Source of the DNA: Marinobacter sp.
Lineage (GTDB): Bacteria > Pseudomonadota > Gammaproteobacteria > Pseudomonadales > Oleiphilaceae
Assembly (NCBI GenBank): GCA_030149475.1
Contig: JASBRL010000050.1
Coordinates: forward strand, 1-64,000
DNA length: 64,000 bases
Direction: 5' to 3'
A program made the translations under genes and the position numbers. This document shows, piece after piece, positions 55,080 through 59,102 of this stretch (the stretch's first letter is position 1; every line of letters starts with the position of its first letter). The notes beneath the pieces are model-generated. The model saw only the letters and a list, made by a program, of their open reading frames with translations. It was not told the origin of the DNA and made no database searches.

Positions 55080-55811
55080 ATGAGGGTACAATCTGTCATC
55101 GTGGGCGCCGCACTGACACTGATATCAACAGGGGTGGCGGCCGCTGAGGAAGACTGGAAAGGCGAGGCAGAGCTGGGGGTTCTGGTCACCACCGGCAACA
55201 CCAACGAAACCAACGTTAATGGCCGCCTGAGTCTGACCCAGGAGCTGGAAAAATGGCGCAACTCCGGCGAACTCAGTTCACTTTATTCCAGTACCAGGGG
55301 CGTAACAACCGCCGAGCAGTACAGCGCCACCGGCGAGACCAACTATAAATTCTCCGAGCAACAGTTCTGGTTCCTGCGGGGAGCCTACGATTCACAGCGT
55401 TTTTCCGGTTTCAGATACCGTACTTCAGTCAGTACCGGTTACGGTAATCGGGTCTGGAAGTCCGGTAAACGGTCATTTCTGGATCTGACGGCCGGCGCGG
55501 GTTACCGGTACAATCGTCTCGAGCAGCCCAATGCCAGCGGTGAAATGGCGGAAAAAGATCCGATCGGGCGTTTTGGCCTGCAGTTCGACTACGGGCTGTC
55601 GCCCACAGCGCTGTTTCGTCAGAAACTGAACACTGAGATCGGCCTGAGCAGCCAAGACACCATTACCGAGTCAGAGACATCCTTGCAGGCGACAGTTGTT
55701 AACAATATCTCCATGAAGGTGGCCTACCGGGTCAAACATTTTTCCAACCCGCCCGCGAACAGCGCCAGCATGGATACCCAAACCTCGCTGTCGTTACTCT
55801 ACGGGTTCTGA
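55080..55811 (+). CDS. DUF481 domain-containing outer-membrane protein
   Basis: Signal peptide, 'WKGEAELGVLVTTGNTNETNVNGRLSLTQELEKWRN' typical YdiY/DUF481 beta-barrel. Confidence 0.9.
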   Translation: MRVQSVIVGAALTLISTGVAAAEEDWKGEAELGVLVTTGNTNETNVNGRLSLTQELEKWRNSGELSSLYSSTRGVTTAEQYSATGETNYKFSEQQFWFLRGAYDSQRFSGFRYRTSVSTGYGNRVWKSGKRSFLDLTAGAGYRYNRLEQPNASGEMAEKDPIGRFGLQFDYGLSPTALFRQKLNTEIGLSSQDTITESETSLQATVVNNISMKVAYRVKHFSNPPANSASMDTQTSLSLLYGF

Positions 55812-55836: not shown

Positions 55837-58047
55837 TTAACGTGCGGCGCTGGCCAGCAGGGTCGCGTATATGGCCTTCACGTCCCGGGAAAACTGTTCA
55901 ACCGAGTAGTCCCTGGCAAACGAGCGGGCCTGGGTAGAGAGAGTTTGCCTCTGGGCTTCGTCGTCAAGTAACTGTTTTACCCGGTCTCGCCACTGATCGA
56001 GGTTCTCGGGGGTCTTGTACCCGTTGTAGCCCTGGCGGACCACGTCATCGATGCCGCTTGAGCGCACGGCGACCACGGGCAGGCCGGCGGCCATGGCCTC
56101 CAGAATGACCATGCCCTGGGTCTCCGACTTGGAGGCAAACAGAAACAGGTCACCCAGCCGGTAATAAGTTGCCATATCCTCCGGCGGGACAGGGCCAACC
56201 AGAGTGACCTGCTGGTCAAGGCCCTGTTCATCAATCCGGGACTGTAACCGGTCACGCTGGTGGCCGTCGCCGATGATCAACAGTCGGAACGGCCGATCAG
56301 TGCTGGCCTTGAGGCGGGCGATGGCATCAATCATGAAGTCGATGTTTTTTTCGTTGGACAGACGTGAAACGCTGATCAGCACCCGTTCGTTACGCAGCCC
56401 CAGTTTTTCCCGCAGGCTCTGTATGTCGTCTTCTTCCACTGCCTGGAAGCGCTGATATTCTATGCCGGTGGGCTGCACAAAGGTGTCTGACTTCACCCCG
56501 ATCATGCGCAGGTATTCCTCGGCGGAGTAGGTCGGCACAATCACCCCGTCGCACTTGTTGGCAAAGCGTTTGATCAGCGCGTGGGAAATCAGGTTGCGAA
56601 ACAGCATCCCCGGCAGGGGCACAAAGTGCGCGTAGTGCTCCAGGCGGGTGTGATAGGTGTAAACCACCGGAATGCGCAAACGGCGTCCGATATACAGCCC
56701 CAGCGAGCCCAGCCAGAACGGGTGGTGAACGTGGATTATGTCAGGGCGGAATGCCTTGACCCGTCGTCGGATGCGGGAGAGAAAAATATTGGCCAGCCTG
56801 AACTCACGCTTCTCGCCCAGAGCCAGCAGGGACGGTGCCCGCAGCACCTGCTGCTCGTCTTCCGGTTGTCCCCGATAATTTGGGGCGACAATCAGGATCT
56901 GATTACCCAGAGCCAGCAGACCACGTCGCAGTCGCTCGATCGAAATCGGCACCCCCCCGATGAAGGGCAGATAGTTGTTGGTGAACTGGGCAATGCGCAG
57001 AGGGCGTTCAAGCCAGGGCGACGGGTCCAGATCGTAGTTTGGATAATAGTCCCGGTTCACGAATACCAGCGAATACAGTTTGATCGCCACAATGGCCAGT
57101 GCGCTGACCAGCAGCGCAAAGTTCAGAAAGCCCACGTAGAACAGCGAGTAGATAAACGACCAGAGCCCCTCAAGGCGCTTGTAAAGTGGATTCTGGGCGG
57201 TGTCCATTCGTTTCAGTTCGATCGTTTTCTGGTCGCCGTTAACGGTCACCTTCACAAAGTGATAGAAACTGGTCTTGTTGTTCAGCACCAGACCGCCGGC
57301 GCCGCCGGTGACGATGAAATCTGTGCCGGCAATGGTCTGACGGGAGTACAGGGACAGGTTGGCGGAAAACACGGCATCCACCTTGTGGGCCTTGATGACT
57401 TTCATCAGTGACTGCCGGAACGCTTCCGGCTGGAGGTAGTCGTCCTTCTCCACGAACGGCAGCGATTGCCCGGTATGGTGTGGGGGGTGGCCGGTAAAAA
57501 TAAAGGTATGGGTGGACGGGTTGTTATCCAGCAGTTCCTGCAACCAGCGAATCTGCCAGCGCCAGGACGTTTTCGGGGTGGTGTCCAGGAAGACCAGCAA
57601 ACTGTTGCCGGCCCTTACGGAATAGAAATAGGGACCGAAATGCTGATAGAAGCGATAGCTGCCGAATTCCTCGTATTCCTGCTGGCCGAACGTCAACAGG
57701 TAAGGCACCGCAAGATGGGTCAACGTGCCATACAGTGCACGGTATTTGTCCTCCCCGCCCCCGCTGACCGCATTGCCTGCCGACACCATGAAATCGATAC
57801 CGGACCGGTTCAGGCGGGGAATGATTTTCTGCTCAAAAATACCCACCGAGTTATTGATGTTTCCCACCACCGCAAAACTGAAACGCTCCGGGTCCTTGAG
57901 GCGCTCGTGGATCTGGTCCACCTCAATGGTGTGTACGGATTCAAACCGGGGTGCAAACAGGTTGAGATAGGCTTTATAGCCAACCAGCAGCACAACGATC
58001 AGCAGGTTTAGGTAAAACAGGGCTTTCAGCGGATTGCGGCGAATCAT
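55837..58047 (-). CDS. Fusion: membrane-anchored calcineurin-like (probably inactive) phosphoesterase domain plus GT4 glycosyltransferase
   Basis: 736 aa; TM at N-terminus; 'FAVVGNINN...SAGNAVSGGGEDKYRALYGTL...LTFGQQEYEEFGSYRFYQHFGPYFYSV...FTGHPPHH'; second TM 'GFLNFALLVSALAIVAIKLYSLVFV'; then GT4 'NYLPFIGGVPISIERLRRGL...HVHHPFWLG...YTYHTRLEHYAHF...SKSETQGMVILEAMAAGLPVVAV'. Confidence 0.88.
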   Translation of the reverse strand: MIRRNPLKALFYLNLLIVVLLVGYKAYLNLFAPRFESVHTIEVDQIHERLKDPERFSFAVVGNINNSVGIFEQKIIPRLNRSGIDFMVSAGNAVSGGGEDKYRALYGTLTHLAVPYLLTFGQQEYEEFGSYRFYQHFGPYFYSVRAGNSLLVFLDTTPKTSWRWQIRWLQELLDNNPSTHTFIFTGHPPHHTGQSLPFVEKDDYLQPEAFRQSLMKVIKAHKVDAVFSANLSLYSRQTIAGTDFIVTGGAGGLVLNNKTSFYHFVKVTVNGDQKTIELKRMDTAQNPLYKRLEGLWSFIYSLFYVGFLNFALLVSALAIVAIKLYSLVFVNRDYYPNYDLDPSPWLERPLRIAQFTNNYLPFIGGVPISIERLRRGLLALGNQILIVAPNYRGQPEDEQQVLRAPSLLALGEKREFRLANIFLSRIRRRVKAFRPDIIHVHHPFWLGSLGLYIGRRLRIPVVYTYHTRLEHYAHFVPLPGMLFRNLISHALIKRFANKCDGVIVPTYSAEEYLRMIGVKSDTFVQPTGIEYQRFQAVEEDDIQSLREKLGLRNERVLISVSRLSNEKNIDFMIDAIARLKASTDRPFRLLIIGDGHQRDRLQSRIDEQGLDQQVTLVGPVPPEDMATYYRLGDLFLFASKSETQGMVILEAMAAGLPVVAVRSSGIDDVVRQGYNGYKTPENLDQWRDRVKQLLDDEAQRQTLSTQARSFARDYSVEQFSRDVKAIYATLLASAAR

Positions 58048-59102
58048 CGGGCGTCCTTGCGGCTGCGGGCCAGTTCCCGTTGCAGTATCACCAGCCCGAT
58101 GGCCATACCCAGATAAATGGTCAGCAGGCGCCAGGCAATGATCACCAGGATCAGGTGGTTGGGCGTCAGTATATCGCGGAAGAAACTGCCGAACACGCCT
58201 TCAGAAATTCCCGATGCCCCGGGCGTGGGAGAGAAGTACATGATAAAGGTTGTGACCACCAGCAGGCCCAGGGTGGTCAGGTAGGGCACGTCATACCCCA
58301 GGCTGTGGATCAACAGTGCCGGAAAGCTGAACAGACTGAGCAGGAATACCAGGGTGAACACCACCGACAACACAACGCTCAGGCGGGGGCCGTGCAGGTA
58401 ATCCGAAAAGCTGTCGGCGAACCTGAGCATTTCCCGTTTGATCCGGAAGTGCCAGCGCTGATGGCGCGCTTCACTGATCAGGTGCAGCCGGCGGAGTCCG
58501 CGGAGCAGGTGTGCAAGTGGAGCAATCAGCCAGTGGGTGCGAAACAGTACCACCGCAAAAAAACCGAGGTACAGCGCAATGAACAGCGACAGCGCTACGT
58601 CGATGTCCTGCAGTATCGGCTGGTGCTGCAGGGCCTTCAGCGTCAGCAGAAACACCGGTGTCAGAGTAAATATGAAGGTGATCGCCAGCACCGTGCGAAT
58701 GGTGGTCGCCGCCGATGCCCGGCCCAGGGGGATTCCTCGTCGCTGGAGATACCAGATCTGGGCAAAACCACCGCCTGTGGCCATGGGGGTGACGTTGGAT
58801 ACAAAAATGTTGATAAACACCAGGCGTGCCATGGCCCGGAACGACAGGTTGTGGCCCAGGGCCTTGAGCGTGAAGTGCAGGCGCAGGCCATCGGCGGTGA
58901 AGTAGACCACCAGCAGGGCGACTACGCTGGCCAGTGACGCCGGATCGGTCAGCCGCGGATCAAACGACAGGCTGCGGCCGGCAAACTGGTGATAGACGGC
59001 GTAAAGGCCGGCGGCTGTCAGCCCGATGAACAACGCACCAGAGACTGCCAGTCGGCGCCAGGGTGTGCGGGGCATGTCGTCGGAGGAGGTGGTCTGGGTC
59101 AT
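58044..59102 (-). CDS. Lysylphosphatidylglycerol synthase TM region/UPF0104 (YbhN-like) flippase-like membrane protein
   Basis: 352 aa polytopic; 'FINIFVSNVTPMATGGGFAQIWYLQRRGIPLGRASAATTIRTVL', 'TPGASGISEGVFGSFF'; 4-bp overlap with the fusion gene. Confidence 0.88.
   Translation of the reverse strand: MTQTTSSDDMPRTPWRRLAVSGALFIGLTAAGLYAVYHQFAGRSLSFDPRLTDPASLASVVALLVVYFTADGLRLHFTLKALGHNLSFRAMARLVFINIFVSNVTPMATGGGFAQIWYLQRRGIPLGRASAATTIRTVLAITFIFTLTPVFLLTLKALQHQPILQDIDVALSLFIALYLGFFAVVLFRTHWLIAPLAHLLRGLRRLHLISEARHQRWHFRIKREMLRFADSFSDYLHGPRLSVVLSVVFTLVFLLSLFSFPALLIHSLGYDVPYLTTLGLLVVTTFIMYFSPTPGASGISEGVFGSFFRDILTPNHLILVIIAWRLLTIYLGMAIGLVILQRELARSRKDAR

Follow-up and report, generated by a model that had tools for sequence, protein, structure and literature searches.

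What role is left to a phosphoesterase-like domain after its metal-binding residues have given way to others, and what does it do for the glycosyltransferase to which it is fused? The question is raised by a gene near the end of the 64,000-nucleotide stretch of Marinobacter sp. DNA that we analysed (contig JASBRL010000050.1, positions 1 to 64,000; hereafter ‘the window’), the product of which joins a calcineurin-like, metallophosphoesterase (MPE)-type domain to a GT4 glycosyltransferase. As judged from alignments and structural models, this is a conserved pseudo-metallophosphoesterase–GT4 architecture. A literature search, which was not exhaustive, returned no publications on a phosphoesterase–GT4 fusion or on a pseudo-MPE–GT4 family.

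Layout and fold of the fusion protein

The original prediction, made from the letters of the sequence, described one reading frame of 736 aa, and we recovered exactly this frame, on the minus strand, together with all of the motifs quoted from it (Table 1). The proposed order of membrane helix, N-terminal domain, second membrane segment and GT4 domain is likewise supported, as a prediction, with a second segment that may not cross the membrane exactly once. The first helix of the AlphaFold2 model coincides with a hydropathy peak, and the residues ahead of it carry, as a family mean, 2.7 lysines and arginines versus 0 aspartates and glutamates. Since the N-terminus is positively charged and followed by two hydrophobic segments, the N-terminal domain is predicted to be periplasmic and the GT4 domain cytoplasmic. 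In the second segment AlphaFold2 places helices at residues 287–304 and 307–330, and the hydrophobic stretch detected by hydropathy (294–333) is long; it could comprise two helices, which would alter the topology. The full-length AlphaFold2 model has a pTM of 0.52, at which the placement of the domains relative to each other is not interpretable.

Table 1. Features of the fusion gene and its upstream partner in the window; replacements are given as GpdQ residue to window residue.
Feature	Position	Strand	Basis or detail
UPF0104/LPG_synthase_TM flippase-like membrane protein, upstream partner	58044..59102	-	PF03706, TIGR00374
Pseudo-metallophosphoesterase–GT4 fusion protein, 736 aa	55837..58047	-	ORF and same-length orthologs
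TM helix 1, residues about 4–31, N-terminus predicted cytoplasmic	57955..58038	-	AlphaFold2 and hydropathy
Calcineurin-like (metallophosphoesterase) domain, residues about 36–285, without standard metal ligands, predicted periplasmic	57193..57942	-	
Former motif I (GDxH), now FAVVGNINNS, residues 58–67	57847..57876	-	D8 to N63, H10 to N65
Former motif II (GDxxx), now VSAGNAVSGG, residues 88–97	57757..57786	-	D50 to N92, invariant
Former motif III (GNH[D/E]), now TFGQQEYEEF, residues 119–128	57664..57693	-	N80 to Q122, H81 to Q123
Former motif IV (HHPP), now FTGHPPHHT region, residues about 183–191	57475..57501	-	H156 to G186
Former motif V (GHxH), now VFSANLSLYSR, residues 226–236	57340..57372	-	H195 to N230, H197 to S232
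Second membrane segment, residues about 287–333	57049..57189	-	AlphaFold2 and hydropathy
GT4 glycosyltransferase domain, residues about 346–736, predicted cytoplasmic	55840..57012	-	Pfam and NCBIfam

Scanning with Pfam models bore out one half of the predicted fusion strongly, namely the GT4 domain, and the other half incompletely: the Metallophos model (PF00149) was not matched in the scan of the whole protein, and with the N-terminal part alone its match (E 0.0013, 19.6 bits) lay under the gathering cut-off of 21.5. The same model was matched by 18 of 22 orthologs, with a best E of 2.2e-6. Searched against the PDB by sequence, the single protein returned noise only; a profile of the family matched the glycerophosphodiesterase GpdQ (E 0.0011) and kidney bean purple acid phosphatase. 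An AlphaFold2 model of the N-terminal domain, built on an alignment of 56 sequences, reached a pLDDT of 83 and a pTM of 0.79, and Foldseek aligned it to Rv0805 (E 9e-13, TM-score 0.75 normalised by target), with purple acid phosphatases, GpdQ, GAP50 (3tgh, rank 33) and VPS29 (8sym) among the further matches. A chance likeness to MPEs is ruled out by the family profile, the Pfam matches of the orthologs and Foldseek. The calcineurin-like fold that had been read from the sequence as a phosphoesterase-shaped region is, with the backing of the AlphaFold2 model and its Foldseek matches, well supported.

Replacement of the metal ligands across the family

The ligand positions were mapped by aligning the window protein to GpdQ, to a purple acid phosphatase and to seven canonical homologs of the standalone type; motif V was mapped against kidney bean purple acid phosphatase (‘DVVFAGHVHAYERS’) and the canonical homologs. 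The established metal ligands of GpdQ (D8, H10, D50, N80, H156, H195 and H197) all lack their expected counterpart in the window protein (Table 1), and none of the dinuclear ligand motifs GDxH, GDxxx, GNHD/E, HHPP and GHxH is found there in its ligand-bearing form. The claim that the standard metal site is gone has thus held, no intact site being present at these positions. The one motif that had been called canonical, FTGHPPHH, turned out not to be so: the ligand histidine is the first of HHPP and aligns to Gly186, which is 87% conserved, and H187 aligns to the second, non-ligand histidine and is lost in many relatives (to Leu, Glu, Asp or Lys). The description of the changes as mostly Asp or His to Asn or Gln is accurate for N63 and N92, which are invariant family-wide, as is N66 in motif I, where N65 is present in about 90% of members and is otherwise Ser or Arg. 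It does not extend to motif III, which is not a clean swap: column 122 varies (E/P/A/D/Q) and column 123 is Asn or His in most relatives, next to an invariant E124. With the standard ligands replaced, the N-terminal domain is not a classical two-metal phosphoesterase, and we consider it highly likely, on the alignments and the model, that classical metal catalysis has been lost.

Full-length orthologs, 65–72% identical, are encoded in 30 of 37 genomes of the same genus, in one case split by frameshifts. Beyond Marinobacter, the hosts include Pseudomonas (taeanensis, benzenivorans, borbori), Halopseudomonas, Idiomarina, scattered Gammaproteobacteria and the alphaproteobacterium Fodinicurvata; the viral contigs that we searched yielded no match. 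The family set comprises 106 non-redundant members, 105 of them alignable and one a truncated reading frame, and N63 and N92 are invariant in all 105. Since one of the scans had used the pattern FAVVGNIN among others, conservation was re-tested on the 33 members found by profile only, without use of the motif, and both residues are invariant there as well. Neither set contains a member with a restored or intact metal site; a few members retain only the second histidine of the former GHxH. The original prediction had allowed that orthologs with standard ligands would reduce the changes to a local mutation: no ortholog has them, the substitutions are a trait of the family, and, being common to all members, they rule out a local mutation or sequencing error. 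The next matches below the family are canonical standalone MPEs at 20–40 bits, with no intermediates, and all members with enough sequence to judge carry the GT4 fusion.

Between close pairs, dN/dS is 0.02–0.10 for the pseudo-MPE domain versus 0.04–0.08 for GT4, meaning that the former is under purifying selection and is not decaying; relaxed decay is ruled out on this basis. The divergence of the two domains co-varies (r 0.89).

Several observations on individual hosts stand beside these results. Marine or halophilic genera (Marinobacter, Idiomarina, Halopseudomonas, Fodinicurvata) make up most of the named hosts, a hint of a salt-related role in the envelope. In Fodinicurvata fenggangensis DSM 21160 (L060, 4896–8202) the flippase and fusion genes adjoin and are 61–69% identical; this points to horizontal transfer among halophiles, unless the contig is mislabelled. 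The fusion gene is spread over several frames in G035 (L030, 4001–6123) and in Marinobacter similis A3d10 (L114, 6001–8141), through either sequencing errors or real pseudogenes.

A putative glycolipid synthase with a flippase partner

The C-terminal half is plainly a GT4 glycosyltransferase, as the original prediction had it. Pfam matches to the whole protein are strong and above cut-off (Glycos_transf_1, PF00534, E 4.6e-40, 137 bits; Glyco_transf_4, PF13439, E 7.7e-32, 111 bits), and the EX7E motif and donor-binding Arg/Lys of a retaining GT-B enzyme are present. With its active-site residues H466, R562, K567, E642 and E650 invariant in 41 of 41 members, GT4 is very probably active. For the GT4 part, the best NCBIfam match over its full length is to Mgs, alpha-monoglucosyldiacylglycerol synthase (NF049988; E 7e-63), at 213 bits, under the equivalog cut-off of 400, so that membership of Mgs was rejected. 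Membership of the gpgSDF system was rejected as well: the model of the GlcNAc-PG synthase GpgS scored 136 bits with an equivalog cut-off of 480, and that of GpgF gave the upstream flippase-like protein 47 bits with a cut-off of 320. A GT4-conflict Pfam model matches the domain weakly and also matches another GT4; PADLOC matched neither the fusion nor the flippase protein, and a role in anti-phage defence was set aside. A sister GT4, 32% identical and without the N-terminal domain, is encoded elsewhere (L194, 931–7613), flanked by a VTT-domain membrane protein with a large unannotated protein, and by a fused type I phosphodiesterase/Exo_endo_phos protein. The gene order in L193 is similar. The arrangement is a further instance of a related GT4 paired with a phosphoesterase-like protein.

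The best clue to the function of the fusion protein is the upstream flippase gene, which the original prediction had overlooked. Its product matches PF03706 (E 1.8e-36, 126.6 bits, cut-off 33.4) and TIGR00374 (E 8.3e-29, 101 bits, cut-off 43.2), and its stop codon overlaps the start of the fusion gene by four bases (ATGA). The two genes adjoin in 90 of 106 members, and the flippase is absent from six well-assembled Marinobacter genomes that are without the fusion. In Marinobacter the conserved neighbours also include DUF481, TrhO-like and GntR genes. The DUF481 gene, which in the window (55080–55811, plus strand) converges on the fusion gene, is a near neighbour at most loci in Marinobacter, in some cases with intervening sequence; in one Marinobacter genome (L022, 2700–4000) an unrelated ORF takes the place of the flippase upstream of the fusion gene.

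These properties suggest a scheme in which the fusion protein would be a retaining GT4 glycolipid synthase of the inner membrane, with the cytoplasmic GT4 domain moving a sugar from a nucleotide sugar onto a membrane lipid. Going by the closest family models, whose scores lie below cut-off, the acceptor would most likely be diacylglycerol or phosphatidylglycerol. The UPF0104 flippase encoded alongside may then take over the product and move it to the periplasmic leaflet, as the coupling of the genes suggests. The pseudo-MPE domain would most likely serve either as a fixed scaffold, or module for headgroup recognition, tying synthase to flippase, or as a reporter of the outer-leaflet product or headgroup; such a role is suggested by the conservation of the pocket and by the precedents of the VPS29 scaffold and the gpgSDF GT4–flippase operon. 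A glycolipid synthase is the probable identity of the enzyme, to judge by family models and gene context. A scaffold or sensor role for the pseudo-MPE falls a little short of an even chance, and we would give the scheme as a whole even odds. Sixteen members, among them the Pseudomonas taeanensis group and Halopseudomonas pelagia, have no flippase gene next to the fusion, and in several of their genomes a genome-wide search found no close flippase, so the idea of a scaffold to the flippase cannot be general. A further proposal, that the pocket, now lined with asparagines, binds a lipid headgroup, or the glycolipid once flipped, and switches GT4 and flippase as a transmembrane lipid-homeostasis device, is speculative and in our view rather unlikely; were it true, the composition of the outer leaflet would set glycolipid synthesis in the inner leaflet.

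The pattern of conservation within the N-terminal domain bears on what else it might do. N63, N66, S67, S89, N92, S95, E124 and GGxGG are among its most conserved positions, and the former ligand columns 122, 123 and 232 drift. At the level of sequence, this fits a repurposed pocket in which only part of the old site is in use, and is also compatible with a structural role. The domain might accordingly be imagined as a membrane anchor or folding module only, a degenerate and ligand-free MPE that positions GT4: the free variation of those columns, the faster evolution of the N-terminal domain (mean identity 0.58 versus 0.67 for GT4) and the presence of the membrane-anchoring GAP50 among the Foldseek matches all speak for this. 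A simple spacer, however, needs none of the highly conserved residues, and a folded domain of 250 residues whose omega does not exceed about 0.1 is a costly anchor, and we regard a purely structural role as unlikely.

We are more sceptical still of a remaining non-classical or single-metal hydrolase or transferase activity, for instance one trimming lipid headgroups for GT4, which would make the protein a fused analogue of PlcP and its GT4. The pairing of MPE and GT4 is metabolically logical, since marine bacteria co-encode PlcP and GT4 (PMC8231724, PMC4796936), and the conserved H39, H136, D155, E124 and H263 could form another site, but neither classical aspartate is left in any member seen, and nearly all members have lost the histidines as well. 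Moreover, the prediction that the two domains lie on opposite sides of the membrane argues against a hand-over of substrate, such as diacylglycerol, from MPE to GT4. We hold it no less improbable that GT4 carries out a step in making a surface polysaccharide, or another glycan linked to lipid, with the flippase and the pseudo-MPE in that pathway. The breadth of the GT4 family and the sub-threshold Mgs and GpgS scores leave room for this reading, but further polysaccharide genes are absent from the neighbourhood of the fusion gene, and the UPF0104 type of flippase is paired with lipid glycosylation in gpgSDF (PMC12713373).

If a glycolipid synthase with a flippase and a pseudo-MPE scaffold or sensor is the correct reading, it would connect the outer face of the inner membrane, in a way that experiments can probe, to a glycolipid synthase in the cytoplasm and its flippase, and this in common marine and halophilic bacteria.

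Comparison with known systems

In Pseudomonas aeruginosa, the gpgSDF genes encode the GT4 GlcNAc-PG synthase GpgS, the deacetylase GpgD and the predicted UPF0104 flippase GpgF, and make GlcN-PG (PMC12713373). The likeness lies in a GT4 encoded together with a UPF0104 flippase-like protein. The gpgSDF system differs in that it has no phosphoesterase domain, its GT4 is predicted to be soluble and it includes a deacetylase; next to the fusion gene of the window, where the neighbours are the flippase, the DUF481 gene and a GntR regulator, there is no deacetylase gene. Mgs differs from the fusion protein in being without the N-terminal domain. The lipid-remodelling pair PlcP–Agt/GTcp of marine bacteria places a phosphoesterase in one pathway with a GT4 lipid glycosyltransferase (PMC8231724, PMC4796936), although PlcP is an active Mn-dependent enzyme from a separate gene, whereas the fused domain described here is without the metal ligands and predicted to be periplasmic. 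By analogy, the pair might hint at how MPE and GT4 first came together, an ancestry that is hypothetical.

As to the N-terminal domain itself, the calcineurin-like phosphodiesterases GpdQ of Enterobacter aerogenes, the closest by profile, and Rv0805, the closest by structure, share its fold and the order of its elements. Unlike them, the domain has replacements at seven ligand positions, is membrane-anchored and is fused to GT4. VPS29 of the retromer uses the MPE fold as a metal-independent scaffold (PMC3101248), but is eukaryotic and soluble, keeps vestigial metal binding and has no enzyme fused to it. Plasmodium GAP50 (3tgh) employs a purple-acid-phosphatase-like fold as a membrane anchor, much as in the anchor role considered above, but is also eukaryotic and is without a glycosyltransferase partner. 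Calcineurin-fold pseudoenzymes are best known from eukaryotes, VPS29 and GAP50 being examples. The family described here would be a well-defined bacterial case, in which the replacement of the metal site is fixed in all members seen and maintained under purifying selection, and in which the domain is always fused to an apparently active GT4.
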